Source of the DNA: Chondrosia reniformis
Lineage: Eukaryota; Porifera; Demospongiae; Chondrillida; Chondrillidae
DNA: 64,000 bases
Direction: 5' to 3'
NCBI GenBank assembly: GCA_947172415.1
Contig: OX359192.1
Coordinates: 4,466,501-4,530,500 of the forward strand
A program made the position numbers and the translations under genes. Of the stretch, positions 5,658-55,739 are shown in pieces. The notes beneath the pieces were generated by a model. That model saw only the letters and a program-made list of their open reading frames with translations. It had not been told where the DNA came from and did no database searches. Position 1 is the first letter of the stretch. Each line of letters starts with the position of its first letter.

Positions 5658-5897
5658 ACACTTCAATGATGGTAAATTGGATGACTGCCCTCACTTATAA
5701 ATCCACCACAAGTGAAACACTTCTGATCATTTTAGCCTTTGCACAGGCTTAGTGCAATTAACTCCCTTTGTCATTGTGAGTGCTCAGTCTCACTTAGACT
5801 GTAGCCTCCATCCTCACTTAAAATGAAACTACAAGTGTTTCACTTGTGGTGGATTTATAAGTGAGGGCAGTCATCCAATTTACCATCATTGAAGTGT

Positions 5898-5942
5898 ACC
5901 ACAGTGATGAGTCCAAATGGGGGCGAAACAGCTGTCTGTGGT
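5898..5942 (+). ncRNA. hammerhead ribozyme with a core mutation
   Basis: Same architecture as the copies at 5,613 and 31,757, with stem I ACCACA/TGTGGT fully paired and stem II GTCC/GGGC. The core reads GTGATGA instead of CTGATGA. Position C3, which pairs with G8, is G here, so self-cleavage is predicted to be lost. Confidence 0.75.
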
Positions 5943-6130
5943 TCTTTGATGAATTTTTTCCATCTTTGGATGACTGGGAGGCGAACACTGGTTGCCAACT
6001 TAATAGGACTTCGGTCCCCCAGCCAAGATCAGACTTCGGTCACTTGGCTGGTATGGCGTAATACGTTCCAGTGATTATTTCTGATCATTTTAGCCTTTGC
6101 ACAGGCTTAGTGCAATTAACTCCCTTTGTC

Positions 6131-6184
6131 ATATCCAAACATTTTTGCCAAAGATAACCCATAATTTTGCCTTATATATCCATC
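6131..6184 (+). repeat. short 23-bp satellite block
   Basis: Includes the right target duplication and continues as in the uninterrupted sequence at 20,383-20,435 until the LINE fragment starts. Confidence 0.9.
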
Positions 6185-6717
6185 AATCAGGTATGAGTGT
6201 TCAAGTATCTTGGTGTGCTTATAAACGATACCCTAACTTGGATCGATCATGTTGACATGATCTGTAGAAAAGTAAGCTGTCGTCTCAACCTTCTTCGTAG
6301 ACTCTCTTGGTTTCTCCCTTGCTCTCTCCTCCTCACTAATCTTAAATCGTACATCCTTCCCCACTTTGACTATTGTGATGTCATCTGGTCTGGCTGTACT
6401 CTAGATGAATCTCGCCGCTTGGAATCGCTGCTGAACTTTAGTTGCAAGATTGTGCTTCATAGGCGTCGTGACTCTTCTTCCACTGCTGCTCTTCAGGAAC
6501 TTGGATTAACGACTCTCACCTTGAGAAGAAAACTTCACATGGCTCAGTGTATGTTTCGCAGCTTATCCTCCCAGGCTCCACCTTATCTGTCTCGGCTCTT
6601 CTCTTATGTTTCTTGCCACCATAACACTCGTTCCTCTTTCACTTCCCAACTTAATCTTCCCTTGGTCAGGTCTTCATTCGGACAGAAGGCATTCAGTTTT
6701 GCCGGTGCTTCCCTCAG
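6185..6717 (+). mobile_element. L2/CR1-like LINE, copy C, internal fragment
   Basis: Nearly identical to the RT-thumb and C-terminal region of copies A and B (VFKYLGVLINDTLTW through FSFAGASL) but truncated at both ends inside satellite: the 5' end begins aatcaggtatgagtg and the 3' end stops at 'gcttccctc' before the conserved LWRSLP motif. The open frame from 6197 runs 175 residues and picks up satellite codons at its end. It shares 'caggtatgagtg' with copy A rather than 'caggtacgagtg' of copy B, so it is closer to A. No catalytic motif is present. No TSD seen. Confidence 0.85.
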
Positions 6718-6919
6718 TGTATAGTCTTAGCCCAATATATCCATATTTTTGCCGAATCTATCCTATAGTTTTACAAATATATCTCATAGGTTTATCAAAT
6801 ATATCCTATAATTTTGCCAAATATAACCCATAATCTTGTCTAATATATAATTCAGTGTTTGCTTAATATATCCAATTATTTTAAAGTATTGCCAATTATA
6901 TCCCATAATATATCGAATA
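6718..6919 (+). repeat. 23-bp satellite
   Basis: C-rich orientation units between the LINE fragment and the Penelope-like element. Its last 15 bp (6905-6919, ataatatatcgaata) are the left target duplication of that element. Confidence 0.9.
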
Positions 6920-7003
6920 ATGTGAAGGACTTCTGCGTGGCTAGGTTCTTGCATATCGGTACGATCGAGGGAAACCACACTAGCCAAAATCAACTTAGAA
7001 TAG

Positions 7004-7047
7004 ATTCCAAACGTTTCGGTCCAATCCAGGACCTTCATCAGTGGAAT
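7004..7047 (-). ncRNA. hammerhead-like ribozyme at the Penelope 3' end
   Basis: Minus strand: stem I ATTCCA, core CTGATGA, one extra A, stem II GGTCC/GGACC with a 6-nt loop, core GAAA, self-complementary ACGT as a minimal stem III, T17, and stem I return TGGAAT. Hammerhead motifs are known from Penelope-like retroelements. With no stem III loop it could fold well only as a dimer, and the extra A before stem II is a deviation. Predicted cleavage is just before TGGAAT. Confidence 0.65.
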
Positions 7048-7246
7048 TAACACTTACAAAACTGAGATGGCAGACTTTATACACATGAAAAAAAGCGGGA
7101 ATAAGGTGTGAATAAATGTGTTGCTAGGGGATGACAGCTTGCATGCATGAGGTATAAGTCCTGTTGTTAACTGTGATGTGATATACTGGTATAATGGAAT
7201 ATAAAGTAACTGAAATATGCTAACATGCAGTGACACAGTCTAATAA

Positions 7247-9408
7247 TCAAGAGGGTGTGTAGAGGTGGATAAGTGGGTTGTACACCCCTGGCAACGGGCC
7301 TTCATCTCGGTTCATCTTATGCCGTTCTGTTCGGATGTGCCTGGCTTCAAGGGTGCATCTCTGGCGGTACCGATGGTTGTGGTCCACCACTTCTGCATCC
7401 TCCCACTTGATGGTGTGGTCCTCCTCCATGGCATGCTCTGCCACCGCTGACTGGGCTGCCTCGCCTGACCTCAGGGCCCTCTTGTGCTCTGTGAGGCGGT
7501 GCTTCAACGTCCTGCTGGTCTGACCGATGTAGACTTTGGGGCAGTTTCCACAGGGAATCCTGTAGACTACACCAGTTCTTTGCGGTGCCGGGGTTGGGTC
7601 CTTCACTCTGACCAGTGACTGTCGCAGTGTGCAGTGTGGTCGGAAGCATGTTCGAATTCCCAGTGGGCTGAGAATCCTTCGGATGCATTCCGATAGATGG
7701 CGGATGTAGGGGAGGGTTACGGTGGCCTTCGGCACATCCTCGTCAGGGTTGCAAGGTGGGGAAGTTGAGGGGTGCCAGTCCCTAGCAACTAGGCTTCGAG
7801 GATAGCCATTGTTGTGGAGGGCCTGTGCAACGTGCTTCTTCTCCTTCTCTCTGTCTGGTACATCAGTACAGATCTTCTCCGCTCGATGGAGTAGAGTGCG
7901 TGCCACCGACACTTTGTGGGCCAAGGGGTGGTGCGAATGGAAGTCTAGGTACCTATCCGTGTGTGTGCTCTTACGAAATACAGTAGTTGTCAGGGAGCCG
8001 TCTATGTGGTGGGTGATCTTTGTGTCCAGAAATGGTAGGGTGTTGTCTGTCTCTTCTTCAACTGTAAACTGGATGGATGCTTCGATGGTGTTCAGATGTG
8101 AGTGGAAGGCTTTGACCTGGTCTTGGGGCAGGGCAGTTACTGTGTCGTCCACGTACCTCTTCCAGAAAGGGACTGGGGACTGGTACGTGGACAGTGCTCT
8201 CTCTTCTACACTCTCCATGACCAGGTTGGCCACTGTCACCGACACTGGGGAGCCCATGGCTGTGCCGAACGTCTGCTTGAAGAACTCTCCTCTGTATGCA
8301 AGGTAGGTCGCGTCCAGGCAGAATTGAAGGAGCTTCACTACCTGATCCGCTGAGAGTGCTGTTCGTTCAGATAGTGAGCTGTCCGCCTTGAGTCTCTCAC
8401 CAGCCACACTTATTGCAAGGTCAGCAGGAACTCTCGTAAAGAGAGACACTACATCAAATGACACCAGGATCATCCCACTGCTGAGGGTCTGACTTGCAAT
8501 AAAGGAGGCAAATTCCGCTGAGTTCTTCACGTGCGAGGTGGACTTGGCAACCAGCGGTAAAAGGATGGACACCAGGTGTTTGGATAGCCCATATGTTGGG
8601 GAGTTCAAGAAGGATACAATTGGCCGAAGGGGGTCTCCGGCTTGTGTATCTTCGGCAGTCCATACAAAAGAGGGACTTTTCCTGCTGAGCTGCGCAGTCG
8701 GTTGTACAAGGTGGTTGGGATTGCCCCCTCCCGTGTCAGGGAAAGGAGTAGGGCATTCATTTTCCTTTCCAGTGCTGGTGTAGGGTCTCTGGGCAGGGCC
8801 TTGTACGTGTCTGCGTCAGCCAAGAAGGTCCTAATCTTCCCATCATATGTTGTGCAGTCCATCACCACGGTGGCGTTCCCTTTGTCTGCTGGGGTGATGA
8901 TGATGTCCTCCGCTTGCTTTAGGCTTCTGATGGCTTTCTGTTCTGCTGGGGAAAGATTGGTAGGGGGAGGTCTCGCCTTGGCCAAGCACCCCGTTATTCT
9001 TGTCCTGGCCAGCTGTGCTTCTGCAGATCCTATCCTGCTGAGACCTCCTTCCACCGCTGCTACGATGTCCGGGACCGGGATTCTTCTGGGGGCCGGGGCA
9101 AAGTTCAGGCCCTTCGCCAGTACACTTTCTTCAGCTGTGGACAGGGGCCTGGACGAAAGGTTCACCACCCATTTGTCCTTAGAGCGACGTGCACGTGCAT
9201 CTCCCGTTCCGCGGTTGAGCAACTTGTCGAACTTTCTCTTCTGTCTTTCTTTACACTTCGTTGTTTTCTCTCGGAAAGACCGCTCCCGTATCATCTCCAT
9301 TGCTTCCGCGTCCGGGGGATGCAAGTGGAACCGCAGTTGACGTCGCTGGAAGAGCAAGTCCAGCTCGAGGTTCCGTACGGTCCTCGCGTTCTGTGCAATC
9401 CGCTACAT
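7247..9408 (-). pseudogene. Penelope-type reverse transcriptase with GIY-YIG endonuclease
   Basis: Encodes the RT that copies element RNA at a cut target and the GIY-YIG nuclease that cuts it. The upstream segment (8605 to about 9402) has the PLE motifs DKGNATVVMD and LPKIHKPETP; it is open without a start codon to the junction, so the N-terminus is missing. The downstream segment (453 residues from 8608) has FDVVSLFT (51-58), MGSPVS (118-123), catalytic YVDD (152-155), LPFLDTKI (191-198), and the endonuclease with GVVY (346), CGNC, YIG (360-362) and the C-terminal Glu (LEARHI, 421). The two are out of frame through loss of one base in a run at 8629-8633 (five G here; copy B has six C in the coding sense). 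Confidence 0.9.
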
Positions 9409-9865
9409 CCGCCATCTATCGGAATGCATCCGAAGGATTCTCAGCCCACTGGGAATTCGAACATGCTTCCGACCACACTGCACACTGTGACAGTCACTGG
9501 TCAGAGTGAAGGACCCAACCCCGGCACCGCAAAGAACTGGTGTAGTCTACAGGATTCCCTGTGGAAACTGCCCCAAAGTCTACATCGGTCAGACCAGCAG
9601 GACGTTGAAGCACCGCCTCACAGAGCACAAGAGGGCCCTGAGGTCAGGCGAGGCAGCCCAGTCAGCGGTGGCAGAGCATGCCATGGAGGAGGACCACACC
9701 ATCAAGTGGGAGGATGGAGAAGTGGTGGACCACAACCATCGGTACCGCCAGAGATGCACCCTTGAAGCCAGGCACATCCGAACAGAACGGCATAAGATGA
9801 ACCGAGATGAAGGCCCGTTGCCAGGGGTGTACAACCCACTTATCCACCTCTACACACCCTCTTGA
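9403..9865 (+). pseudogene. GIY-YIG endonuclease fragment of the inverted Penelope copy
   Basis: Plus-strand duplicate of the last part of the element's ORF, from YIRHLSECIRRIL through the complete GIY-YIG domain (GVVYRIPCGNCPKVYIGQTS) to the stop at 9865. A stop TGA at 9488-9490 replaces an Arg codon present in the other copies (CTLRQS). The RT is absent, so it is a truncated pseudo-terminal repeat, not a gene. Confidence 0.9.
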
Positions 9866-10064
9866 TTATTAGACTGTGTCACTGCATGTTAGCATATTTC
9901 AGTTACTTTATATTCCATTATACCAGTATATCACATCACAGTTAACAACAGGACTTATACCTCATGCATGCAAGCTGTCATCCCCTAGCAACACATTTAT
10001 TCACACCTTATTCCCGCTTTTTTTCATGTGTATAAAGTCTGCCATCTCAGTTTTGTAAGTGTTA

Positions 10065-10108
10065 ATTCCACTGATGAAGGTCCTGGATTGGACCGAAACG
10101 TTTGGAAT
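10065..10108 (+). ncRNA. hammerhead-like ribozyme in the inverted Penelope copy
   Basis: Same motif as 7004-7047 on the plus strand with all core bases conserved (CTGATGA, GAAA, stem I ATTCCA/TGGAAT, stem II GGTCC/GGACC). Confidence 0.65.
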
Positions 10109-10155
10109 CTATTCTAAGTTGATTTTGGCTAGTGTGGTTTCCCTCAATCGTACCG

Positions 10156-13100
10156 ATAATATATCGAATAGTTTTACCCAATATACCCCTTAGTTTAAGT
10201 TTAATATATCCCATAGTTGTTGACAAATATATCCCATGGTATATCCCTTAATTTTTGCCTTATATATCCCATAATTTTGCCTAACATATCCCTTAGTTTT
10301 TGCTTAAAAATCCAATGGACAAGAATATCCCATAGTTTTGCCAAATATATCCAACAATGTTTTACCAATATATACCCTACTTTTTGCCGAATATATCCAA
10401 AAAAAACTATAGTCTTAGCCCAATATAACCAATAGTTTATACCAAACATATACCATATTTTTCAAAATATACAATAATTGTTGCCAAATATAACCAATAA
10501 TATAACCTCTAGTCTTAGCCAATATATCCCATAGTTTTCCCTAACTTATTCCATAGTTTTCCCAAATATATCCTATAGTTTTTGCTAATTATTCCATAAT
10601 TTTTACCACATATATCACATAATTTTGCCTAAAACATACCTGAGTTTTGCTTAATATATCCAATTACTTAAAAATATTGTCAATTACATCCCATAATATA
10701 CCCCATAGTTTAACCAAAAAACCTTAGTTTTTGTCAAATATATCCCATGGCTTTTGACAAGTATATCACTCAGTTTTTTCTTAATATATCCAATGGACCG
10801 GTATATCCCATCGTTTTGCCAAATATATTCGACAATTTTTAAACAATATATCCCATAATATATCGTATAATGTTTGCCCAATATATCCCACAGTTTTAAC
10901 CGAATATATCCCATAAAATAACCTAAAGTCTTAGCCCAATATTTCCAATAGTTTTTGCCAAATATATCCCATATTTTTCCAAATATATCCCCTAATGGTT
11001 GCCTCATATATCCCATTATATAATCTCTAGTCTTGGCCCAATATATACCATAGTTCTCCTTAATATATCCCATAGTTTTTCAGAATATATCCCACGGTTT
11101 TTGCTATGTATATCCCATGATTTATGCAAGTATACATAATTTTGCCTAATCTATCCTTCAGTTTTTGCTTAATATATCCAATTATTTAATAATATATCTC
11201 ATAATATAACCCCTTTAGTTTTTGTCAAAGATATCCCATAGCTTTTGACAAATATAACCCACAGTATATCCCATAATGTTTGCCCTATATATCTCATAAT
11301 TTTGCATAATATATCCATTGGGTTTTGCTTAATATATCCTATGGACCAGTATATCCCATAGTTTTGCCAAATATATCTAAAAATTTAACCAATATATCCC
11401 TTAATACATCCCATAATTTATACCCAATATATCCTATAGCTTTTGCCGAATATATCCCATAAAATAACCTGTAGTCTTAGCCCAATATATTTAATAGCTT
11501 TTTGCCAAATATATCCCATCCTTTTTCCAAATATATTACATATATTTGCTCAATATATCCCATATTATAACCTATGGTCATAGCCCAATATTTCCCATTG
11601 TTTTTGCGCAATATACCCCGTAGTTTTTCTGAATATATCCCATAGTTATTGCAAATATATCCCATAGCTTTTGACAAGTATATTTCATAGTATACCCCAT
11701 AATGTTTGCACTATATTTCCCATAATTTTGCCTAATATCTCCCTTAGTTTTTGTTTAATATATCCAATGGACCAGGATATTCCATAGTTTTGCCAGATAA
11801 TATCCTATAATTTTTAACCAATATATCCCATAATATATCCCATAATTTTGCTCAATATATACCATGGTTTTTGCAGAATATATCCATAAAATAACCTATA
11901 GTCCTAGCCCAATCTATCCTATAGTTTTTGCCCAATATATCCCATAGTTTTACCCAATATACCCCTTAGTTTTAGTCAAATATATCCTTCATGCTTTTGA
12001 CAAATATATCCTATAATATATCCTATAATTTTTGCCCTATATATCCCATAATTTTACCTAATATATCCCTTAGTTTTTTGCTTAATATATCCAATGGACC
12101 AGTATACACCATAGTTTTGCAAATTATATCCAGCAATTTTTAACCAATATATCCCATAATATATCACATAATTTTTGCCCAAAATATCCCATAGTGTTTG
12201 CCAAATATATCCTATAAACTAACCTATAGTCTTAGCCCAATATATCCCATAGTTTTGCTAAATATATCCAACAATTTTTAAACAATATATCACATAATAT
12301 ATCCCATAATGTTTGCCCAATATATCTCATAGTCTTTGCAAAATATATCCTATAAACTAACCTATAGTCTTAGCCCAATATATCCCATAGTTTTTGCCCT
12401 GTATAACCCATAGTTTTACTGAATATATCCCATAGTTTTTGCAAATGTATCCAACAATGTTTAACCAATGTATCCCATAATATATCCCATTTTTGCTTAA
12501 TTTATCCAATTGGCTGGTATATCCCATATTTGGCAAAATATATCCCTCAATCTGTAACCAATATATCCCATAATATATTCAGTAATTTTTGCCCAATAAA
12601 TCCCACAATTATATCCCATAGTTTGGCAAATATATCCAATAATATTTGCCAGATATATCCCATAATTTTGCCTAATATATCCCTCTGTTTTTGCTTAATA
12701 TATCCAATATTTAAAAATATTCCCAATTATATCCAATAATATATCCCATAGTTTTACCAATATACCCCTTAGTTTTTATCAAATATATCCCATAGTATAT
12801 CTCAAAATGTTTGCCCTGTATATTCCATAATTTTGCTTAATATAACTTTTAGTTTAGCTTAATATATCCAATGGACCAGCATATCCCATAATTCTGCCAA
12901 ATATATCCAACAATTTTTAACCAATATATCCCAAAATATATGCCATAATTTTTGCCCAATATATCCAATAGTTTTTACCGAATATATCCAATAAAAAACC
13001 TATAGTCATAGCCAATGGATCCCATAGTTTTGACCAAATATATCCAATATTTTCAAAATATATCCCATTATTTTTGCTAAATGTATCCCATACTTTATCC

Positions 13101-16100
13101 AAATTTATCCCATAATTTTGCCAGAGATATCCCATAATTTTGGCGTAATATATCCCTGTTTTTGCTTAACATTTCCAATATTTAAACATTTTGCCAATTA
13201 TATCCCATAATATATCCCATAGTTTTACCCAATATGCCCATTAGTTTTTGTCAAAAAATTTCCATAGGTTTTGAAAAATATATCCCATAAATTTTGCCAA
13301 ATACATCCCATTATAACCTATAGTCTTAACCCCATATATCCCATAGATTTATCCCAAAATATCCCGTGGTTTTTCCAAATATATATTGGTAAATATATCA
13401 CATAATTATTTTGATATCTATCCCCAAATATAACCTAGAGTCTTAGCCCTATATATCCCATAGGTTTTGCAAAATATATCCCATAAAATAGGCAATAGTC
13501 TTAGCCCAATATATCCCATAGTGTTTGGCCAATATATCCCATAGTTTTTACGAATATATCCCATAGTTTTAACGAATATATCCCATAATTTTTGCCAAAT
13601 ATATCCCATAATTTTGACTAATATATATCTCACTTTTGGCATAATATATCCTATCATTTAAAAATATTGCCAATTATATCCCCTAATTTACTCAATATAC
13701 CTCTTACTTTTTGTCAAATATATCCCATAGCTTTTAACAAACATGGTATATCCCAAAATGTTTGCCCTATATATCCCATAATTTTGCCTTATATATCCCT
13801 TAGTTTTTGATTAATATATCCAATGGACCAGTATAACCCATAGTTTTGCCAAATTTCCTCCCATTTTTAACTAATATATCTCATAACATATCCCATAATC
13901 TTTGCTCATTATATTCCATATTTTTTTCCGAATGCAACCCATACCTTATCAAATTATATCCCATAATTTTACCAAATATATCTTATAATATAACCGATAG
14001 ACTTTGCACAATATATCCCATAGTTTTTTCCCAGTATATCCAATAGTTTTTCCGAATTTATCCCATAGTTTTTGCCAAATATATCCCAACTTTTGCCTAA
14101 TAAATCCCGCAGTTTTTGCTTAAATATCCAATTATTTAAAAAGTATTACCAATTTTATCCCATAATATATCCCATAATATATCCCATATTTTTACCCAAT
14201 GTACCCCTGAGATTTTGTAAAATATAACCTATGGGTTTGTCAAACATAACCTATAGTATATCCAATTATTTTTGCCCTATATATTCCATAATTTTGCCTA
14301 ATATATCCCTTAGTTTTTGGTTAATATATTCAATGGACCAGTAAATCCCATAGTTATGCCCAATATATTCAACAATTTTTAACTAATATATCCCATAATA
14401 TGTCCCACATTTTTACCAAAAATATCCATAATTTTGCCAAATATATCCCATAATTTTGCCTAATACAACCCTCGGTTTTTGCTTAATTTATCCAATTATT
14501 TAAAAATATTGCCAGTTATATCCCATAATATATCCCATAGTTTTAGCCAATATACCCCTTAGTTCTTGTGAAATATCTCCCATAGGTTTTGACATATATC
14601 CCATAGTATATCCCATGATTTTTGTCCTATATATCCCATAATTTTGCCTAATACATCCCTTAGTTTTTGCTTAATATATCCAATGGACCTGTATATCCCA
14701 TGCTTTTACCCAAAATATCCAACCAGTTTTAACCAATATATCCCATAATTTTTGCCACTTGCATCCCATAACTTTGCCTAATAAATCCCTCAGTTTATGC
14801 TTAATTTATCCAATTATTTTAAAATATTGCCAATTATATCCCATAATATATCACATAGTTTTAGCCAATATACCTCTTAGATTTTGTCAAATATATTCTA
14901 TAGCTTTTGACATATACATCCCATAATATATCCCATGCTTTTTGTCCTATATATCTCATAATTCTGCTTAATATATTCCCTAGGTGTTTCTTAATATATC
15001 CAATGGACCAAATATATCCAACAATGTTTAACCAATATATTCCTTAATATATCCCATAATGTTTCCTCTACATATATCCCATTATTTTTATCCAATATAT
15101 CCCCTAAAATAACCTATAGCTTTTTCCAATGTATCCCATAATTTTTACCAAATATATCCAATAATATAACCTATAGTCTTAGCCTAATTTATTCCAGTTT
15201 TTGCCAATATATCCCTTAGTTTGTGCTTAATATATCCAATGGACCAGTATACCCCATAGTTTTGCCAAATACATCCAACAACTTTTAACCCATATTTCCT
15301 AAAATATATCCCATAATTATTGTCCAATATATTCAATAACTTTTGTTGAATATATCCCATAAAATAACCTAAAGTCCTAGCCCAATATACCCCTTAGTTT
15401 TTGTCAAATATATCCCATAGCTGTTGACAAATATAGCCCATAGTATATCCAATGAATTTTGCCCTGTATATCCCATTATTTTGTTTAATATATCCCTTAT
15501 CTTTTACTTTATATTTCCAATAAACCAATATATTCCATATTTTCCAAATATATCCAACAAGTTTTAAACAATATATTCCATAATATATCCGATAATTTTT
15601 GCCCAATATATCCCATACTTTTAGCCAAATATATCCAATAAAATAACCTATAGTCTTAGCCTCATATATCCCATAATTTTGCCAAATATATCCCACATAA
15701 TTTCCAAAAATATCCCATAATTTTTGCCAAATATATCCCGTAATGTTTGCCAAATATATCCCATAATATAACCTATACTCTTAGCCCAATATATCCCATA
15801 GTTTTTCCCAATATATCTCATAGTTTTCCCGAAAATATTCCCTAGATTTTCTAGTATATCCCATAAATTTGGTAAATATATCCCATATTTTTTCCTAATA
15901 TATCCTTTAGTTTTTGATTAATATAACAATGGACCTGTATATCCCATAGTTTCGCCAAATATATCCACCAATTTTTAACTAATATATCCCATAATGTATC
16001 CCATAATTTTTCCCAATATATCCCATAGTTTTTGCCGAATATATCCCATAAAATAACCTATACTCTTAGCTTAATATACTCCATATTTTTTGCCAAAATT

Positions 16101-19100
16101 TAAGCCATATTTTGTGCGTCATATATCCAATGCACCAGTATATCCCATATTTTCTCCCATAATGTTTTCCCAATATATCCCATATTTTTACCCAATATAT
16201 CCCATAGTTTTTCCCAAATATATCCCACCTTTTGCCAAATATATCCCTTAGTTTTGCTTAATATATCCCTCTGTTTTGGCTTAATATATTCAATTATTTA
16301 AAAATATTGCCAATTTTATCCCATAATATATCCCATAGTTTTAGCCAGTATACCCTTTACTTTTTGTCAAATGTATCCCATAGCTTTTGACAAATATATC
16401 CCATTGTGTATCCCATAATTTTTGCACTATATATCCCATAATATTGCCTACTATATACCTTAGATTTTGTTAATATATCCCATTGACCTTTATATTTCAT
16501 AGTTTTGCCAAATATATCCAACAATTTTTATCCAATATATCCCATAACATATTTCATAATTTTTGGCCAATATAACCGATAGTTTTTTCAGGTTACATCC
16601 CAAATGTTTTCCAAATATATCCCATTATTTTTGCAAAATATATCCCATAATATAACATACACTCCTAGCTCAAAATATCCCAAAGGTTTTACCCAATATA
16701 TCCAATAGTTTTGCTGAATATATCATAAATTTTGCAAAATTATCCCATAATTTTTGCCAAATATATCCCATAATTTTGCTTAATACAACATTCAGTTTTT
16801 GCTTAATTTATCCAATTATTTAAAAATATTGCCAATTATATCCCTTAATATATCCCATACTTTTAGCCAATATACCCCTTAGTCTTTGTGAAATATCTCC
16901 CATAGGTTTTGACATATATATCCCATAGTATATCACATGATTTTTGCCCTATATACCTCATAATTTTGCCTAATATATCCCTTAGTTTTCGCTTAATATA
17001 TCCAATGGACCTGCATATCCCATACTTTTACCCAATATATCCAGCAATTTTTAACCAATATATCCCTTAATATATTCCAAAATTTTTGACAAATATATCC
17101 CAGAATTTTGCCTAATACAACCCTCAGTTTTTTGCTTAATTTATCCAATTATAGAAAAATATTGCCAATTATATCCCATAATATATCACATATTTTACCC
17201 AATATTTTCCATATTTTTCCTAATATATCCCATAATATTTGCCAACCATATTCCATAATATAACCCAAATTCTTAGCCCAATATATCCCATAGTTTTGCT
17301 TAATATATCCCTCTGTTTTGGCTTAATATATATGCAATTATTTAAATATATTGCCAATTATAAACCATAATATATCCAATAGTTTTACCCCGTATACCCC
17401 TTAGTTTTAGTCAAATATATCCCATAGCGTTTGAAAAATATATCCCATTGTATATCCCATAATTTTGCTACTATATCCCTTACGTTTTGATTAACATATC
17501 CAATTGACCTGTATATCTTATAGTTTTGCCAAATATATCCAACAATTTCTAACCAATATATCCAATAATATATCCCATAATGTTTTCCAAATATAACCCA
17601 TAGTTTTTTCAGGTTATATCCCAAATTTTTTCCAAATATCTCCCATAATTTTTGTAAAATATATCCCATAATATAACATATAGTCCAAGCTCAATATATC
17701 CCAAAGTTTTGCCCAATATATCCAATAGTTTGCTGAATATATCCTATAGATTTTGCAAATATATCTCATAATTTTGACTAATACAACCCTCGGTTTTTGT
17801 TTAATTTATCCAATTTGAAAATATTGCCAATTATATCTCATAATATATCTCATAGTTTTAGCCAATAAACCCCTTAGTTTTTATGAAATATCTCCCATAG
17901 CTTTTGACATATATATCCCATAGTATATCCCATGATTTTTGTCCTATATATCCCATAATTTTGCCTAATGCATCCCTTAATTTTTGCTTAATATATCCAA
18001 TGTACCTGTATATCCCATACTTTTACCCAATATATCGAAATATTTTTAACCAATATATCCAATAAAATTTGCCAAATATTTCCCATAATTTTGCCTAATA
18101 AATCCCTCAGTTGTTGCTTAATTTATCCAATTACTTAAAACAATTGCCAATTATATCCCATAATATATCACATAGTTTTAGCCAATATACACCTTAGATT
18201 TTGTCAAATATATTCTATATAGCTTTTGACATATATATCCCTTAATATATCCCATAATGTTTCCTTTACATATATCCCATAATTTTTATCCAATATATCC
18301 CCTAAAATAACCAATAGCCTTCTCCCAATATATCCCATAATTTTTACCAAATATATCCCATAATATAACCTATAGTCCAATATATCCAATATCTTTGGAA
18401 TAATATATCCCATAGTATATCCCATAATTTTTAACTATATATCCCATAATTTTGCCTAATATAACCCTTTGTTTTTGCTTAATATATCCAATTAGTATAT
18501 CCCAAATGTTATCCTACAATTTTTAACCAATATATCGAAGAGTATATCCCATAATGTTTGCCCAATATATCCCATAGTGTTTGCCGAATATATCCCATAA
18601 ATAACATATAGTCTTAGCCTAATATATCCTATAGTTTTCGAAATATATACCATAATTTTTGCCAAATATATCCCATAATATAATGTATAGTCTTAGCCCA
18701 ATATATCCCACAGTTTTTGCCCAATATATCCCATACTTTTCCGATTATATCCCATAGTTTTTGCAAATATATCCTATAATTTTTGCCAAAAAAACTCATA
18801 CTTTTGCATTATATATCCCTCAGTGTTTGATTAATATATCCAATTATTTAGCAATATTGTCAATTATATCCCATATATCCCATAGTTTTACCCAATGTAT
18901 CCTTTAGCTTTTGTCGAATATATCCCATAGCTTTTGACAATTATATCCCATAGTATATCCCATAATTTATGCCCTTTATATCCCATACTTTTGCATAATA
19001 TATCCCTTAGTTTTTAATTTAAATTTCCAATGGACCAGTGTATTCCCTAGTTTTGCCAAATATACTGTTACCAATATATCCCGTAATATATCCCATAATG

Positions 19101-20904: not shown

Positions 20905-22310
20905 GTATTACTTCCAATGTTCCCATATCCCAATCTTCCGTTCTTGACTTAGCTATCTCTGATCATCTACCTATAATGCTAGACATCGACTGTAGTGTTC
21001 CTAAACCTCATCCATGCTTAGTAACTCGTAGGTCATTTAAGAACTTTTCCAAAGGAAGCTTCGAAGATGATCTTTCTATTGTACCATGGTCTATAATTGA
21101 TGTCTTCGATAGCCTTGATGATAAGATCGACATCTTTAACTCACTCTTGCTGGATGTTGCCAGGTTACTCGTGTCAGTGACTCATTTTCCCTCTTGGTTT
21201 TCCCACAACTGGGGTTCCCCAAGGCTCTGTGCTTGGTCCTTCTCTCTTCTCTGCCTTTATCAATGACCTGCCTTCATTCCTGCCTGCTGATTCTGTTGTT
21301 CTCTTTGCTGATGACACTGCCATCTACATCACGAGTAGCAATCTTGCTTCTTTAAACTCTTCGCTTCAACAGTGTCTAGATGCAACCAGCCTGTGGATGG
21401 CCAGCGATGGACTGCAACTGAATGCAAGCAAAACAAAATGTATGCTCCTTCACTCTAGTAGAAGAAAAATTGAGACTGGATTGGACCTTCTTGTTGATGG
21501 TGTAACTGTTAATCAGGTACGAGTGTTCAAGTATCTTGGTGTGCTTATAAACGATACCCTAACTTGGAGTGATCATGTTGACATGATCTGTAGAAAAGTA
21601 AGCTGTCGTCTCAACCTTCTTCGTAGACTCTCTTGGTTTCTCCCTTGCTCTCTCCTCCTCACTAATCTTAAATCGTACATCCTTCCCCACTTTGACTATT
21701 GTGATGTCATCTGGTCTGGCTGTACTCTAGATGAATCTCGCCGCTTGGAATCGCTGCTGAACTTTAGTTGCAAGATTGTGCTTCATAGGCGTCGTGACTC
21801 TTCTTCCACTGCTGCTCTTCAGGAACTTGGATTAACGACTCTCACCTTGAGAAGAAAACTTCACATGGCTCAGTGTATGTTTCGCAGCTTATCCTCCCAG
21901 GCTCCACCTTATCTGTCTCGGCTCTTCTCTTATGTTTCTTGCCACCATAACACTCGTTCCTCTTTCACTTCCCAACTTAATCTTCCCGTGGTCAGGTCTT
22001 CATTCGGACAGAAGGCATTCAGTTTTGCCGGTGCTTCCCTCTGGCGCAGCCTACCTACAGCCATTCGTGCAACACCTAACCTCAGCCTCAACAATTTTAC
22101 GGAACTATGTAAACGTTTTTATTCTAATGCATGAGCGACCATTTGTATTATGTAACAATATGCACACAACCTAATTGACAATTCTATTTTATTTATTTAT
22201 TATTTATTTATTGTACATATTGTTGTTTTGGTACTGGGTGCCTTTGTAGTAGCCTCAGGCTATTGGCCTCCCCAGTTGGAATAAGATTTCCTGATATCCT
22301 GATATCCTGA
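20905..22310 (+). mobile_element. L2/CR1-like LINE, copy B
   Basis: Plus-strand partner of copy A with the same 5' truncation point, the same internal deletion and the same 3' tail (tcctgatatcctgatatcct, then ctgatag into satellite). The 3' UTR has a T-rich segment (about 22,185-22,210) and the AGCCTCAGGCT hairpin. It is the best preserved of the three copies. Confidence 0.88.
20907..22134 (+). pseudogene. LINE ORF2 remnant: endonuclease end, RT core, C-terminus
   Basis: The segment from 20,907 reads the C-terminus of an APE-type endonuclease (LAISDHLPIMLDI, the His-containing motif) and linker (VPWSIIDVFDSLDDKIDIFN). At about 21,185-21,215 it passes out of frame into TTGVPQGSVLG, deleting the RT fingers. 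The 301-residue frame 21,229-22,134 then has FADD (26-29), LNASKTKCMLL, the thumb (VFKYLGVLIND), and the C-terminal SLWRSLPTAIR and LCKRFYSNA. A complete ORF2 of this type is normally about 900-1000 residues, so most is gone. Confidence 0.85.
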
Positions 22311-29025: not shown

Positions 29026-31566
29026 TATCCCTTACTTTTTGCTTAATATATCCAATGGACCAGTATATCCCATAGTTTTGCCAAATATATCCCACAATTA
29101 TAAACCAATATATCCCATAATTTTGGCCCAATATATCCCATAGTTGTTGCCGAATATATCCCATAATATAACCAATAGTCTTAGGCCAATATATCCTATA
29201 GTATTTGCCATATATATCCCAAATATATCCCATAATTTTTGCCCAATATATCCCATTTAATAACTTATAGACTTAGCCCAATATATCACATAGTTTTTGC
29301 CCTATATATCACATAGTTTTACCGAATATATCCCATATTTTTGAAAATATATCCCATAGTTTTTGCCAAATTATCCCGTAATTTTGCCTGATATATCCCT
29401 CACTTTTTCTGAATATATTCAATAATTAAAACAATTTGGATTATATCCCATAGTTTTTCCCATAATTTTTGCTGTATAAATACCGTAATTTTGACTAATA
29501 TATCCCATAGTTTTGCCGAATATATCCCATAAAATAACTTAGAGTCTTAGCCCCATATATCCCTTAGTTTTTGGCAATATATCCCTTAGTTTTTGTTAAC
29601 TATATCCCATAACTTTTGACAATTATATCCCATATTATATCCCTTAATATATCCCATAGTTTTACACAATATACCCCTTAGTTTTTGTCAAATATATACC
29701 ATAGCTTTTGACAAATATATCCCATAGTATGTAACATAATATTTGTCCAATATATTCCATAATTTGCCTAATATATCCTTTACTTTTTGCTTAATATATC
29801 CAATGGACCAGTATATCCTATAGTTTTGCCAAATATATCCAAAAAATTTTAACCAATATTTTCCATAAAACAACCCATAATGTTTGCCCAATATATACCA
29901 TAGTTGTTGCCAAATATATCCCATAAATAACCTAAAGTCTTACCCCAATACATCACAAAGGTTTTGCCAAATATGTCCCATAGTTTTCTGAATATATCCC
30001 ATAGTTTTTGTAAATATTTCCCATAATTTTTGCCAAATATATCCTATAAGTTACCTTAAATATCCCTCCGTTTTTCCTTAATATATCCAATTATTTTAAA
30101 ATATTCCCAATAATATCCCATAAAATATCCCATAGTTTTACCCAATATACCCTTTAGTTTTTACCCAACATATCCGAATGCCGAATACATCCCATAATAT
30201 TATCTATAGTATTAGACCAATATATCCCACAGTTTTGCCAAATATATCCCATATTTTTACTAAATAAATCCTGTAATTTTTGCCAAATATATTCCATACT
30301 TTAACTTATAGTTTAGGCCAAAATATCCCAGAGTGTTGCAAATATATCCCATATTTTTTTCCAAATATATCCCATAATTTTGCCTCATATATCCCTTACT
30401 TTTTGCTTAATATGTCCAATTATTTAAAAATATTGCCTATTAAATCCCATAATATATCCCATAATTTTACCCAATATACCCATTATTTTTGGTCAAATAT
30501 ATCCCATAGCTTTTGACGACTATATCCCATAGTATATACCATAATTTTTACTTTATATATCTCATAATTTTTGCTTAATATAACCCATAGATTTTAATTA
30601 ATATATCCAATGGACTGGTATATCCCATATTTTTAAAATATATCCCATAATTTTTGACAAATATATTATATATTTTTCCAATTATATCCAATAATTTTGC
30701 CAAATATAGCCCATATTATAACCTATAGTCTTAGCCCAATATATCCCTATAGTTTTTGCCCACTATATCCCATAGTCTTTCTGAATAAATCCCATAGTTT
30801 TACAAATATATCCCCTTCGTCTTTTGTCAAATATATCCCATAGTATATACCATAATTTTTGCCTTTTATATCCCATAATTTTGTCTAATACATTACTTAG
30901 TTTTTGCTTAATATATCCAATGGACCACTATATTGCCTAGTTTTGACAAATATATCCAACAATTTTTAACCAATATATCCTATAATATATCCCAAAATTT
31001 TTGCCAATATATCATAGTTTTTACAAATATATCCTATAAAATAACCTATAGTCTTAGCCCAATATATTCCATAGTTTTTGCCAAATATATCCCATATTTT
31101 TCAAATATATCCTATAATTTTGCCAAATATTTCCAAAAACGTTTAACAAATATATCCCATAATGTATTCCATAATTTTTGCCCAATATATGTATAGTTTT
31201 TGCCGAATATATAACATAAAATAACCTAAAGTCTTAGCCCAATATAACCCATAGTTTTCCTAATATATCCCTCAGTTTTGGCTTAACATATCCAATTATA
31301 TATTTAAAAAATTTTGTCAATTATATCCGATAAATATCCTATAGATTTACCCAAAATACCCCTTAGTTTTTGTCTAATATATCCCATAGCTTTTGACAAA
31401 TATATCCCATAGTATTTCCCATAATTTTGCCCTATATATCCCATAATTTTGCCTAAGACATCCCTTAGTTTTTGCCGAATACATCCCATAAAATTATCTA
31501 TAGTATTAGACCAATATATCCCATAGTTTTTGCCAAATATATCCCATATCTTTACTAAATAAATCC
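29026..31566 (+). repeat. 23-bp satellite
   Basis: C-rich orientation with the usual landmark variants. The part at about 30,400-30,745 is a close paralogue of 38,640-39,075 and 42,120-42,400. It ends with the left target duplication aaataaatcc (31,557-31,566) of the next element. No gene. Confidence 0.93.
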
Positions 31567-32004
31567 TGACAAAGGGAGTTAATTGCACTAAGCCTGTGCA
31601 AAGGCTAAAATGATCAGAAATAATCACTGGAACGTATTACGCCATACCAGCCAAGTGACTGAAGTCTGATCTTGGCTGGGGGACCGAAGTCCTATTAAGT
31701 TGGCAACCAGTGATCGCCTCCCAGTCATCCAAAGATGGAAAAAAATTCATCAAAGAACCACAGACAGCTGTTTCACCCTCATTTGGGCTCATCAGTGTGG
31801 TACACTTCAATGATGGTAAATTGGATGACTGCCCTCACTTATAAATCAACCACAAGTGAAACACTTGTAGTTTCATTTTAAGTGAGGATGGAGGCTACAG
31901 TCTAAGTGAGACTGAGCACTCACAATGACAAAGGGAGTTAATTGCACTAAGTCTGTGCAAAGGCTAAAATGATCAGAAATAATCACTGGAACGTATTACG
32001 CCAT
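31567..32004 (-). mobile_element. retrozyme-like element with terminal direct repeats and hammerhead ribozyme
   Basis: 438 bp with 79-bp terminal direct repeats (31,567-31,645 and 31,926-32,004) that differ at one base, and a 280-bp unique centre: 1.2 copies of a 359-bp monomer in tandem. The direct repeat aaataaatcc flanks it (31,557-31,566; 32,005-32,014), extendable to 11 bp. No open frame. A complete hammerhead sits in the centre on the minus strand. Monomer size, tandem arrangement, ribozyme and about 10-bp TSD agree with metazoan retrozymes; their mobilisation by Penelope-type RT is a published proposal, and such elements are present in this window. Confidence 0.82.
31757..31801 (-). 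ncRNA. hammerhead ribozyme, type I, all core bases intact
   Basis: Minus strand in order: stem I ACCACA (31,801-31,796), CTGATGA (31,795-31,789), stem II GCCC with loop AAATGA and GGGT (31,788-31,775), GAAA (31,774-31,771), short stem III in CAGCTGT with a 2-nt loop, cleavage triplet GTC with C17 at 31,763, and stem I return TGTGGT (31,762-31,757), fully complementary. Every conserved position fits. The 3-bp stem III suggests activity mainly as a dimer, as reported for animal retrozymes. Confidence 0.88.
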
Positions 32005-35000
32005 AAATAAATCCTATAATTTTTTCCAAATATATCCCTTATTTTTGTCAAATATATCCCATAGCTTTTGACGAATATATCCCATAATATATCCCATAAT
32101 TTTTGACAAATATATTATATATTTTTCCAATTATATCCAATAATTTTGATTAATATATCCAATGGACCATTATATCCCAAAGTTTTGCCAAATATATTCA
32201 ACAATTTTAAACCAATATATCCCTTAATATTTCCAATAATATTTACCCAATATATCCCAAATATTTTGCTCAATATATCCAATAGCTTTTCGGAATATAT
32301 CCCATAATTTTACCCGATATACCCCTTAGGTTTAGGCAAATATATCCCAAAGCTTTTAACAAATATATCCCATAGTATATCCCACAATTTTTGCCCTATT
32401 TATCCCATAATTTTGCCTAATAATCCCTTACTTTTTGCTTAATATATCCAATGGACAAGTATATCCCATAGTTTTGCCAAATATAACCAACAATTTTTAA
32501 CCAATATATCCCATAATATAACCCTTAATTTTGGTCCAATATATCCCATAGTTCTTGCCGAATACATCCCATAAAATAACCTATAGTCGTAGCCCTATAT
32601 ATACCACAGATAATACCAAGTATATCCTATATTTTGCCAAATATATCCCATAGTTTTTGCCCAATATATCCCATAGCGTTTGCCAATTATCCGTATTTTT
32701 TCCAAATTTATCGCATTATGTTTGACAAATATATCCCATAATATACCCTATAGTCTTAGCCCAATATATCCCATAGTTTCTGCCCTATATATCCCACACT
32801 TTTTTCTGAATAAATCCCATAGTTTTACAAATATATCCCTTTAGGTTTTTGTCAAATATATCCCATAGTATATCCCATAATTTTAGCTTTCTATATCCCA
32901 AATGTTTCCTAAGACATTCCTTAGTTTTTGCTTAATATATCCAAAGGACCAGTATATCCCATAGTTTTGCAAAATATATCCACCAATTTTTAACCAATAT
33001 ATCCCATAATATATTCCATAATTTTTGCCCAATATATCCCATACTTTTGGCGAATATATCCCACTAAATAACCTATAGTCGTAGCCCATAGTTCTTTGGA
33101 ATATATCCCATTGTTTTTGCAAATATATTCCAGAGTTTTTGCCTAATACATCCCATAAAATTATCTATAGTCTTAGGCCAATATATCACATACTTGTTGC
33201 CAAGTATATCCCATATTTTTCAAATATATCCCATAATTTTAGCCAAATATATCCAATAATGTAAAAATATTGCCAATTATATCCCATAATATATCCCATA
33301 ACTTTACCCAATATATCCCATAGTTTTGCCGAATATATAACATAAAATAACCTAAAGTCTTAGCCCAATATAACCCATAGTTTTTCCTAATCTATCCCTT
33401 AGTTTTTGCTTAACATATCCAATTATTTAAAAATTTGTCAATTTTATCAAATAAATATCCCATAGGTTTACCCAAAATACCCCTTAGTTTTTGTCTAATA
33501 TATCCCATAGCTTTTGTCAAATATATCCAATAGTATATCTCTTAATTTTTGCCCTATATATCCCATAATTTTGCCTAAGACATCCCTTAGTTTTTGCTTA
33601 ATATATTCAATCGACCAGTATATCCCATAGTTTTGCCAAATATATCCCATAGTTTTTGCCGAATACATCCCATAAAATTATATATAGTATTAGACCAATA
33701 TATCCCATAGTTTTTCCGAATATATCCCATCGTTTTTGCAAGTATATCCCATAATTTTTGCACAATATATCCCATAATTTTACCTAATCCATCCCCTAGT
33801 TTTTGCTTAATATATCCCCTGGAGCAGTATATCCCATAGTTTTGCCAAATATATCCAAGAATGTTTAACCAATATATCCCATAATATAACCCATAATTTT
33901 AGCCCACTATATTCCAGAGATTTTGCCGAATACATCCCATAAAATTATCTATAGTCTTAGACCAATATATCCCATAATTTTGGCCAAATATATCCCATAG
34001 CTTTTGCCCAATTATCCAATACTTTTTCCAAATATATCTGCATTATGTTTGTCAAATATATCCCATTATATAACCTATAATTCGGAAAAACTATGGGATT
34101 TATTGGGCAAAAACTATGGGATATATTTGGCAAAATATAGGATACACTTGGCAATAACTATGGTATACATAGGGCTACGAGTTCAGGTTATTTTATGGGT
34201 TATATTTGGTCAAACTATGGGATATATTGGTCTAAGACTATAGATAAAATTATAGGATGTATTCGGCAAACACTATGGGATATATTTTGCAAAACTATGG
34301 AATATACTGGTTCATTTGATATATTAAGCAAAAACTAAGGGATGTCTTAGGCAAAATTATGGGATATACTGTAAAAATTATCGGATATATTATGGGGTGT
34401 AATTGGCAATATTTTTAAATAATCAGATATATTAAGCCAAAACTTAGGGATATATTAAGTAAAATTGTGGGATATATTTGGAAAAATTATGGGATATATT
34501 TGGAAAAAATTATGGGAGATATTTGCAACAATATGGGATATTTGGCCTAAACAATAAGTTGAAATATGGGATATATTTGGCAAAATTATGGGAGTTATTT
34601 AGTAAAAATAAGGGATATATTTGGCAAAACTATGGGATATAGTGGTCAATTGAATATATTAAACAAAAACTAAGGCATGTCTTAGGCAAAATTATGGGAT
34701 ATATAGAGCAAAAATTATGGGATATACTATGGGATATATTTGTCAAAAGCTATGGGATATATTAGACAAAAACTAAGGGGTATTTTGGGTAAATCTATGG
34801 GATATTCATGGGATATAATTGACAAATTTTTAAATAATTGGATATTTTAAGCAAAAACTGAGGGATATATTAGGAAAATCCATGGTTTTATTGGGCTAAG
34901 ATTCTAGATAATTTTATTGGATGTATTCGACAAAAACTCTGGGTTATTATGGGTTATATGGTATATATTGGATAAAAATTGTTGGATATATTTGGCAAAA

Positions 35001-53347: not shown

Positions 53348-53444
53348 ATAGAACTAATTATATGTGAAGGACTTCTGCGTGGCTAGGTTCTTGCCTATCG
53401 GTACGATCGAGGGAACCACACTAGCCAAAATCAACTTAGAATAG

Positions 53445-53488
53445 ATTCCAAACGTTTTGGTCCAAACCAGGACCTTCATCAGTGGAAT
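53445..53488 (-). ncRNA. hammerhead-like motif, core GAAA mutated
   Basis: Same layout as 7004-7047 (ATTCCA, CTGATGA, stem II GGTCC/GGACC), but the second core element reads AAAA instead of GAAA. Predicted to be inactive. Confidence 0.6.
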
Positions 53489-53687
53489 TAACACTTACAA
53501 AACTGAGATGGCAGACTTTATACACATGAAAAAAAGCGGGAATAAGGTGTGAATAAATGTGTTGCTAGGGGATGACAGCTTGCAGGCATGAGGTATAAGT
53601 CCTGTTGTTAACTGTGATGTGATATACTGGTATAATGGAATATAAAGTAACTGAAATATGCTAACATGCAGTGACACAGTCTAATAA

Positions 53688-54020
53688 TCAAGAGGGTGTG
53701 TAGAGGTGGATAAGTGGGTTGTACACCCCTGGCAACGGGCCTTCATCTCGGTTCATCTTATGCCGTTCTGTTCGGATGTGCCAGGCTTCAAGGGTGCATC
53801 TCTGGTGGTACCGATGGTTGTGGTCCACCACTTCTGCATCCTCCCACTTGATGGTGTGGTCCTCCTCCATGGCATGCTCTGCCACCGCTGACTGGGCTGC
53901 CTCGCATGACCTCAGGGCCCTCTTGTGCTCTGTGAGGCGGTGCCTCAACGTCCTGCTGGTCTGACCGATGTAGACTTTGGGGCAGTTTCCACAGGGAATC
54001 CTGTAGACTACACCAGTTCT
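53688..54020 (-). pseudogene. GIY-YIG endonuclease fragment, inverted partner
   Basis: Open from the junction (RTGVVYRIPCGNCPKVYIGQ) to the stop at 53,688, containing GVVY, YIG and the LEAWHI glutamate. The RT and zinc-finger-like region upstream are absent. Encodes an isolated nuclease domain only. Confidence 0.9.
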
Positions 54021-55427
54021 AAGATACACAAGCCGGAGACCCCCCTTCGGCCAATTGTATCCTTCTTGAACTCCCCAACATATGGGCTATCCAAACACCT
54101 GGTTTCCATCCTTTCACCGCTGGTTGGCAAGTCCACCTCGCACGTGAAGAACTCAGCGGAATTTGCCTCCTTTATTGCAAGTCAGACCCTCAGCAGTGGG
54201 ATGATCCTGGTGTCATTTGATGTAGTGTCTCTCTTTACGAGAGTTCCTGCTGACCTTGCAATAAGTGTGGCTGGTGAGAGACTCAAGGCGGACAGCTCAC
54301 TATCTGAACGAACAGCACTCTCAGCGGATCAGGTAGTGAAGCTCCTTCAATTCTGCCTGGACGCGACCTACCTTGCATACAGAGGAGAGTTCTTCAAGCA
54401 GACGTTCGGCACAGCCATGGGCTCCCCAGTGTCGGTGACAGTGGCCAACCTGGTCATGGAGAGTGTAGAAGAGAGAGCACTGTCCACGTACCAGTCCCCA
54501 GTCCCTTTCTGGAAGAGGTACGTGGACGACACAGTAACTGCCCTGCCCCAAGACCAGGTCAAAGCCTTCCACTCACATCTGAACACCATCGAAGCATCCA
54601 TCCAGTTTACAGTTGAAGAAGAGACAGACAACACCCTACCATTTCTGGACAAAAAGATCACCCACCACATAGACGGCTCCCTGACAACTACTGTATTTCG
54701 TAAGAGCACACACACGGATAGGTACCTAGACTTCCATTCGCACCACCCCTTGGCCCACAAAGTGTCGGTGGCACGCACTCTACTCCATCGAGCGGAGAAG
54801 ATCTGCACTGATGTACCAGACAGAGAGAAGGAGAAGAAGCACGTTGCACAGGCCCTCCACAACAATGGCTATCCTCGAAGCCTAGTTGCTAGGGACTGGC
54901 ACCCCTCAACTTCCCCACCTTGCAACCCTGACGAGGATGTGCCGAAGGCCACCGTAACCCTCCCCTACATCCGCCATCTATCGGAATGCATCCGGAGGAT
55001 TCTCAGCCCACTGGGAATTCGAATATGCTTCCGACCACACTGCACACTGCGACAGTCACTGGTCAGAGTGAAGGACCCAACCCCGGCACCGCAAAGAACT
55101 GGTGTAGTCTACAGGATTCCCTGTGGAAACTGCCCCAAAATCTACATCGGTCAGACCAGCAGGACGTTGAGGCACCGCCTCACAGAGCACAAGAGGGCCC
55201 TGAGGTCAGGCGAGGCAGCCCAGTCAGCGGTGGCAGAGCATGCCATGGAGAAGGACCACACCATCAAGTGGGAGGATGCAGAAGTGGTGGACCACAACCA
55301 TCGGTACCGCCAGAGATGCACCCTTGAAGCCTGGCACATCCGAACAGAACGGCATAAGATGAACCGAGATGAAGGCCCGTTGCCAGGGGTGTACAACCCA
55401 CTTATCCACCTCTACACACCCTCTTGA
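54021..55427 (+). pseudogene. Penelope-type RT and GIY-YIG endonuclease, 5'-truncated
   Basis: A continuous frame of about 469 element codons without frameshift: KIHKPETPLRPIVSFLNSPT, FDVVSLFT, MGSPVSVTVANLVME, catalytic YVDD, LPFLDKKI, CFRPHC, then GVVYRIPCGNCPKIYIGQTS and LEAWHI to the stop at 55,427. The open frame also runs upstream into the antisense of the inverted partner, which is an artefact of the junction. The N-terminal RT region (DKGNATVV motif) is missing. It is the least damaged RT in the window but lacks a start. Confidence 0.9.
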
Positions 55428-55626
55428 TTATTAGACTGTGTCACTGCATGTTAGCATATTTCAGTTACTTTATATTCCATTATACCAGTATATCACATCA
55501 CAGTTAACAACAGGACTTATACCTCATGCCTGCAAGCTGTCATCCCCTAGCAACACATTTATTCACACCTTATTCCCGCTTTTTTTCATGTGTATAAAGT
55601 CTGCCATCTCAGTTTTGTAAGTGTTA

Positions 55627-55670
55627 ATTCCACTGATGAAGGTCCTGGATTGGACCGAAACGTTTGGAAT
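55627..55670 (+). ncRNA. hammerhead-like ribozyme at the Penelope 3' end
   Basis: ATTCCA, CTGATGA, extra A, GGTCC/GGACC, GAAA, ACGT, T, TGGAAT, identical to the motif at 10,065-10,108. Confidence 0.65.
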
Positions 55671-55739
55671 CTATTCTAAGTTGATTTTGGCTAGTGTGGT
55701 TTCCCTCGATCGTACCGATAGAACTAATTATATTTAGCC

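Follow-up and report, generated by a model that had tools for sequence, protein, structure and literature searches.

Retrozymes with a type I hammerhead and Penelope-type paired start sites in the sponge Chondrosia reniformis

Introduction

Metazoan retrozymes, described in coral, mussel and axolotl, carry type I hammerhead ribozymes in tandem repeats, form circles and have units of about 170-400 nt, according to the main text of PMC7229834. The same text names Penelope-like elements as strong candidate movers of retrozymes, on the grounds of shared hammerheads, tandem copies and co-occurrence, and the available part of PMC8969392 raises the possibility that the retrozymes of animals depend on Penelope-like elements and could be classed among the short interspersed nuclear elements (SINEs). 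The return of an animal retrozyme to DNA has so far been guesswork. Here we describe a retrozyme insertion at positions 31567-32004 of a 64,000-nt stretch of the Chondrosia reniformis genome (GenBank assembly GCA_947172415.1, contig OX359192.1, positions 4,466,501 to 4,530,500 of the forward strand; hereafter the window), together with its relatives elsewhere in the assembly, where two retrozyme families carry the Penelope-type end structure of their own genome.

For the Penelope protein of the anole, the available sections of PMC11167929 report cleavage and extension of both target strands, and internal starts at two neighbouring sites, which account for the tails of genomic copies. Rotifer Penelope elements have head-to-head inverted pseudo-long terminal repeats (pseudo-LTRs) with an optional 31-bp tail at one of them and 8-10-bp duplications, and self-priming on antisense RNA has been proposed for them (PMC3846280, in the sections available). 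Plant LTR retrozymes, as summarized in the main text of PMC7229834, combine type III hammerheads with LTRs; their circles measure 600-800 nt and their duplications 4 bp.

The sponge element resembles the plant elements in being a non-autonomous hammerhead element that, by analogy, would spread through RNA circles; unlike them it has a type I hammerhead, no LTRs and a 10-12-nt flank match. With the metazoan non-LTR retrozymes in the main text of PMC7229834 it shares unit size, type I hammerhead, tandem copies, low G+C (43% in the retrozyme unit), duplications longer than 4 bp and the presence of Penelope-like elements in the genome. It differs from them in the head-to-head palindromic form of most sponge clusters and in their two fixed start sites; that main text uses none of the words 'inverted', 'sponge' and 'porifera'.

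Results and discussion

The window copy and its hammerhead ribozyme

The element and its immediate surroundings comprise the following features.

31567-32004, minus strand: single-armed insertion of retrozyme family I, made up of one 359-nt unit and a further 79-80 nt (from the repeat, genome matches and map)
31557-31566, unstranded: left target site duplication AAATAAATCC (from the sequence and control placements)
32005-32014, unstranded: right target site duplication AAATAAATCC (same basis)
31757-31801, minus strand: type I hammerhead ribozyme, expected cleavage between 31763 and 31762 (from Rfam, unit conservation, covariation and a motif script)

The initial annotation had read this locus as a non-coding, retrozyme-like element with an intact hammerhead, a 359-bp monomer, 79-bp terminal direct repeats and a 10-11-bp target duplication. 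Direct repeats at 31567-31646 and 31926-32005 (80 nt, one mismatch, 99% identity) are spaced by 359, which bears out the monomer length; the duplication is 10 bp, with AAATAAATCC on each side, and an open-reading-frame scan returned no frame of at least 110 amino acids overlapping 31567-32004, in agreement with a non-coding element. Repeat spacing, target duplication and a conserved, covarying ribozyme together confirm the retrozyme-like element. The terminal repeats are present at 79-80 bp but are merely the overlap of a 1.22-unit copy with its partial second unit and not LTRs, and a reading as an LTR retrotransposon was rejected on this ground. The sense strand of this copy is the minus strand. 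A phage collection search was without match.

A satellite of 22-23 bp surrounds the insertion and recurs across much of the window, so that short flank matches come cheaply; the best flank match, 12 nt including ambiguous edge bases, was nevertheless equalled in 0 of 30 random placements within the same satellite flanks.

Read along the minus strand from 31801 to 31757, the ribozyme is ACCACA-CUGAUGA-GCCC-AAAUGA-GGGU-GAAA-CAGCUG-UC-UGUGGU. Direct reading and the motif script both recover the conserved hammerhead positions and the expected cleavage point 31763/31762 that had been annotated. With a core, a stem I of at least 5 bp and a stem II of at least 4 bp required, the script found a single site in the window, and 40 equally long Markov windows yielded none. 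The 4-bp stem II and its AAATGA loop are present as annotated, but the basal pair of the stem in this copy is G.U; the equivalent position is C in 59 of 64 family I units and T in 5. These 64 units are hits covering at least 290 of the 359 positions, several per locus. Majority conservation among them was 0.991 across the 45-nt hammerhead versus 0.964 elsewhere, and the stretch ranked 22nd of 315 windows, placing it among the most conserved segments though not at the top.

Comparison with Rfam, suggested earlier as a check, gave a divided outcome. No family attained its gathering score in the scan of the window: the best match of the hammerhead was to HH9 (24.8 bits, E 0.00097), below the gathering score of 52, and other family I copies reached at most 29.0 bits with HH9, none above gathering. 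The hammerhead of family II, the second retrozyme family of this genome, passes RF00163 with 37.1 bits (cut-off 34).

Covariation was assessed on 14 hammerheads (13 distinct) from families I, II and others. Among the 13 distinct sequences, 98.8% of cells in paired positions were paired, against 22-48% for slid structures. Two-sided change occurred in 17 pair cells, compared with a shuffled mean of 6.4 (0 of 500 shuffles reached 17) and 0 in slid versions, and the covariation score of the set exceeded all 500 shuffles. Pairs changing on both sides were A-U/G-C and C-G/U-A in stem I and C-G/U-A in stem II. Such events are few, the hammerheads being related to one another and most of the changes distinguishing two groups. 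This comparison shows that the sense RNA, which reads as the minus strand, is able to fold into a type I hammerhead whose stems covary.

Fold prediction places the hammerhead stems in the circular sense folds. Against 60 shuffles, circular folds gave z of -6.7 and -6.9 for the sense strand and -7.5 and -5.7 for the antisense strand; both are very stable, so stability gives no preference for the sense strand.

Two interspersed retrozyme families with target duplications

The assembly surveyed holds 117,379,552 bases on 15 contigs; each copy search scored its best 40 candidates, so that copy counts are lower bounds. The window family I unit has at least 123 matches in its own genome. At least 98 clusters of two retrozyme families were recovered: 30 of family I, 28 of its subfamily 2 and 40 of family II. 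Units measure 359 bp in family I and 355 bp in family II, and in a blastn comparison of family I with seven family II loci (L079-L085) the two families shared the ribozyme alone, at 83-85% over 38-46 nt. Family I copies lie on all 14 large contigs, many with fixed ends, an outcome of the genome-wide survey that agrees with the initial annotation. Type I hammerhead, non-coding 359-bp unit, partial tandems, duplications longer than 4 bp, many fixed-end copies and Penelope-like elements in the genome jointly uphold its identification as a metazoan retrozyme.

Six further hammerhead-bearing repeats (L010, L013, L075, L076, L077 and L078) are partly family I-like, at 80-93% over 34-201 nt, and their sequences suggest additional retrozyme families in this genome.

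The window holds a second family I copy.

5463-6131, unstranded: head-to-head palindrome, left end B, right end A (end classes defined below), with a 12-nt flank match ATATCCAAACAT

Under loose placement, 41 clusters gave flank matches of at least 12 nt in 21, 9-11 nt in 2, 5-7 nt in 13 and none in 5. Within the 21, the match is element sequence at L034 and L040 and a simple TA run at L020 and L021, which are copies of one insertion. Twenty-six of the 41 clusters, 13 satellite-like and 13 not, were re-examined with 30 control placements each, lengths in this set including 1-3 ambiguous edge bases. At nine of the 13 non-satellite loci (L024, L025, L028, L029, L032, L038, L050, L051 and L052) the match was 12-15 nt, and none of the 30 controls at each equalled it. 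L018 had a 9-nt match (0/30 controls), L019 and L037 had 7 nt (0/30 and 1/30, respectively), and L031, re-examined in the same way, had no flank match. Nine of the 13 satellite-like loci matched over 12-14 nt, with controls at 0-4/30 and both window copies at 0/30; L030 and L036 showed 6-nt matches that did not surpass the controls, and L027 and L048 had no flank match. Duplications longer than 4 bp thus accompany the window copy and 10 of the 13 non-satellite loci, not every copy. The retrozyme family is interspersed, and many of its copies have target duplications.

These flanks bear on whether the copies are a palindromic satellite spread through DNA recombination or segmental duplication. 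Some copies have been duplicated along with their flanks, for example the C1 triplet, as such a process would have it. The nine loci with unrelated flanks and individual 12-15-nt matches, and the presence of copies on all 14 large contigs, make it scarcely credible as the general explanation.

A second satellite (TACTAGTTGTATG-like) in the flanks of L081-L095 carries and amplifies retrozyme insertions, for example the q121 group on C8 and C12. The family II junction q121 recurs in seven copies; the flanks of five look homologous by eye, and the seven are tallied as a single insertion.

Copies begin at two fixed sites that are used as a pair

The end tables of the clusters define two sites, which lie in the window copy as follows.

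31567-31571, minus strand: site A, outer sense 3' end, inferred start of reverse transcription
31609-31611, minus strand: site B, second inferred start of reverse transcription, about 43 nt upstream of A in the RNA
31583-31606, minus strand: possible H-type pseudoknot between B and A, AGCCU/AGGCU plus UUGCAC/GUGCAA (read from the sequence)

Head-to-head palindromes make up 65 of the 98 clusters, and all 65 run antisense then sense, with sense 3' ends outward. End classes were set after seeing the data, as A up to q9 and B at q38-56, q33-48 or q51-66 in three coordinate sets. After removal of four obvious duplicates from the 98 clusters, 62 palindromes comprised 49 AB, 1 AA, 2 BB and 10 with one end elsewhere; the 32 one-directional clusters started at A in 16 cases, at B in 15 and elsewhere in 1, so that use of the two sites is about equal. 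In a further step, two groups borne on satellites were collapsed after comparison of flanks by eye, with C8:2488400, C9:3777670 and C12:2925158 assigned by structure alone. This left 86 clusters: 55 palindromes (43 AB, 1 AA, 2 BB, 9 other) and 31 one-directional. Where both ends could be classified, 43 of 46 palindromes were AB, when independent equal choice would give about half (p 2.3e-10). The A-B distance, or tail, in retrozyme palindromes is about 43-61 nt.

Retrozyme copies therefore begin at two fixed sites, and their palindromes nearly always pair one arm from each. This pairing of one A with one B limits how the inserting enzyme works. Paired A/B starts also fit the published biochemistry of Penelope, in which both target strands are extended and two internal start sites are used (PMC11167929, available sections). 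No description of a one-tail A/B layout in retrozymes was found in open-licence full text, nor any such text joining 'hammerhead ribozyme' with 'Porifera', and the available parts of PMC11722881, PMC6431247 and PMC8969392 hold no report of an inverted one-tail layout in retrozymes. The layout is already known for Penelope elements, and the dependence is already suspected; its occurrence in retrozymes is the part that we did not find described.

The stretch between B and A looks structured by eye, pseudoknot-like in family I and a 10-bp hairpin in family II (q1-61), and is possibly a binding site for the enzyme. The candidate pseudoknot at 31583-31606 scored 19.6 bits (E 0.82) with an Rfam pseudoknot model whose gathering score is 38. 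A CCUAGCC word in some tails and a helix around B were also spotted by eye and were not used as evidence.

Penelope-like elements of the same genome have the same layout

Two Penelope-like elements lie in the window.

6922-10158, unstranded: head-to-head palindromic Penelope-like element, ending at A (q1) on the left and at B (q33) on the right
53364-55721, unstranded: head-to-head palindromic Penelope-like element, ending at A on the left and at B (q32) on the right, with flank match AACTAATTATAT
10056-10104, plus strand: hammerhead-like motif in the Penelope-like element 6922-10158

Their frames at 7247-8608 (minus strand) and 53925-55427 (plus strand) have RVT_1 and GIY-YIG matches below the Pfam cut-offs, with E from 1.2e-5 to 5.5e-4; the frame at 8605-9357 (minus strand), adjoining 7247-8608, has no Pfam match. 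No reverse transcriptase/GIY-YIG frame lies inside the retrozyme at 31567-32004.

Ends were surveyed in 20 fetched loci and the window. In the window's Penelope family, all 10 palindromes in which the two outer ends were captured pair an A end with a B end, with tails of about 32 nt. The ten are the two window copies, L056+L057 (further internal pieces), L058, L059+L061, L060+L074, L062, L065, L066/L067 and L071; one outer end was captured at L064, and L068, L069 and L072 (weak matches) and L070 and L073 (no match) were uncounted. At the one locus read of a second Penelope family, whose protein is about 43% identical, one end is about 30 nt longer, which brings the one-A-one-B layout to 11 of 11 palindromes read at both ends in the two families together. 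Among Penelope hits longer than 400 bases (86 of 89), 15 neighbouring pairs within 6 kb comprised 14 outward, 1 tandem and 0 inward.

Hammerhead-like motifs with GAAAC-GUU were read from the sequence upstream of B in several Penelope families. On the window Penelope end, Rfam gave RF00008 at 20.2 bits (E 0.085, gathering 48.5), and on two ends of the second Penelope family nothing relevant. The retrozyme hammerhead script found no motif in 22 Penelope loci; it misses the Penelope motifs because one extra base follows CUGANGA.

The sponge retrozymes are thus like the GIY-YIG Penelope-like elements, as far as PMC11167929 and PMC3846280 present them, in their adjacent start sites, inverted head-to-head ends, duplications and hammerhead near the starts, with a tail on one inverted end of 43-61 nt as against about 30 nt in the Penelope-like elements. 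They differ in having no reading frame and a different stem III, and sequence similarity was not detected. Could the retrozyme then have arisen by deletion from a Penelope-like element, as a non-autonomous solo pseudo-LTR, and not be of separate origin? The alike A/B ends and palindromes, the similar duplications and the presence in each of a hammerhead, or a motif resembling one, upstream of the start sites would all be expected. Such descent is nonetheless improbable: similarity is limited to short matches or flanks, stem III contains CAGCUG in retrozyme hammerheads versus GAAAC-GUU in the Penelope motifs, and families I and II have only the ribozyme in common by blastn. Sequence shared by the retrozyme and Penelope elements, sought in the window and the 22 Penelope loci, was not found. 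A flank just outside a Penelope-like insertion (L065:3003-3046) is similar at 81% to a 47-nt stretch of retrozyme family II (E 0.001).

An enzyme of the long interspersed nuclear element (LINE) type is another conceivable mobiliser, since a reverse transcriptase frame at 21229-22134 (RVT_1, 42.2 bits) reads as LINE-type and twin priming, which yields inverted 5' parts, would make the palindromes ordinary. We regard this as more improbable still, given that two fixed start sites are used as a pair, that the sense 3' ends of the retrozyme clusters have no A-rich tail (41 clusters) and that the Penelope elements show an equal pattern.

Proposed mobilisation in trans and a possible mechanism

The likeness of palindrome layout makes mobilisation in trans by a Penelope-like enzyme the simplest account, and we consider it highly probable that the element is a metazoan non-autonomous retrozyme mobilised by Penelope-like enzymes. 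Tail sequences differ, and no particular Penelope family is singled out as the mobiliser. Ribozyme activity, RNA circles and expression are presumed here by analogy with known retrozymes.

In the proposed sequence of events, the transcript would cleave itself and be ligated into circles about 359 nt long. A reverse transcriptase/GIY-YIG endonuclease of Penelope-like type, provided in trans, would bind the A/B region and cut both target strands with a stagger of about 10-13 nt. Complementary DNA (cDNA) would be primed from each target 3' end, one at A and the other at B; each cDNA would run about one lap, often stopping in the start region, and joining of the two in the middle would give a palindrome. 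Priming on a single strand would leave a partial tandem such as the window copy. In a more specific version, which we put forward only tentatively, an enzyme dimer would sit on one ribozyme-made circle, and the A- and B-primed cDNAs copied from that same circle would be joined, a two-armed rolling-circle target priming that yields palindromic multimers. If true, retrozymes would be to Penelope-like elements as SINEs are to LINEs, a parallel that PMC8969392 has already raised as possible, and their insertion mechanism would be legible in the genome.

Several observations weigh against the account given so far. The number of pairs with two-sided change in the hammerhead (3) is not above shuffles, of which 150 of 500 reach 3. 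Eighteen of the 41 clusters are without a flank match above 7 nt, and 9 of the 55 palindromes have one end at neither A nor B. Retrozyme-Penelope similarity within the window consists of 10-16-base matches only, and in the 22 Penelope loci matches to the retrozyme up to E 0.001 lie in flanks, one of them being a neighbouring retrozyme copy. In the available sections of PMC11167929, unprocessed RNA is the main in vitro substrate of the anole Penelope protein, and the hammerhead is not needed. Inner ends of arms within 12 nt of the hammerhead cut number 5 of 141, where 9.8 are expected. The nearest relative of a unit in another locus is on average 0.97% away, and the arrays L046 and L031 each have four columns common to only some units.

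The template and the arms

Among 141 arms, 79 span 0.8-1.3 laps, 37 are shorter and 11 reach at least 2 laps, the range being 0.09 to about 5. Inner ends fall in the start region, which extends from q350 through q95 and makes up 29% of the circle, in 81 of 141 arms (p 3.6e-12), a peak that comes partly from blast pieces ending at the query's ends. The hammerhead-cleaved linear monomer was rejected as the usual template, since inner ends are not enriched at the cut; templates were accordingly usually intact across it, as ligated circles or uncut transcripts.

The second of these forms underlies a rival in which a linear transcript, left uncut and exceeding one unit in length, serves as template; its 5' end would lie near q50-90, and insertion would not depend on the hammerhead. 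The clustering of inner ends past B and their lack of enrichment at the cut speak for it, as does the in vitro use of unprocessed RNA by the anole element (PMC11167929, available sections). We think it rather unlikely, though a serious competitor, because 11 of 141 arms run for at least two laps, the hammerhead is conserved and covarying, and inner ends are spread and not at a single position.

Unit divergence was 1.2% within the same arm (24 pairs), 1.5% between opposite arms (16 pairs) and 2.5% from other loci of the subfamily. At L029, nine uncommon bases are common to both arms; at L026 none are shared and 16 columns differ. One template per insertion is plausible at some loci from these comparisons, which do not establish a general one-circle rule.

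Other features of the window

The 22-23-bp satellite (AATATATCCCATAATTTTGCC-like) occurs on both strands, for example at 1341-17575, and 465 tandem-repeat rows were recorded in the window, 150 of which were covered here. A PIF1-like helicase frame at 62423-63976 (minus strand; Pfam 95.6 bits) is, we presume, possibly from a Helitron. RNase H domains (RT_RNaseH and RT_RNaseH_2) of an LTR-retrotransposon-type polyprotein lie at 338-979 (plus strand).
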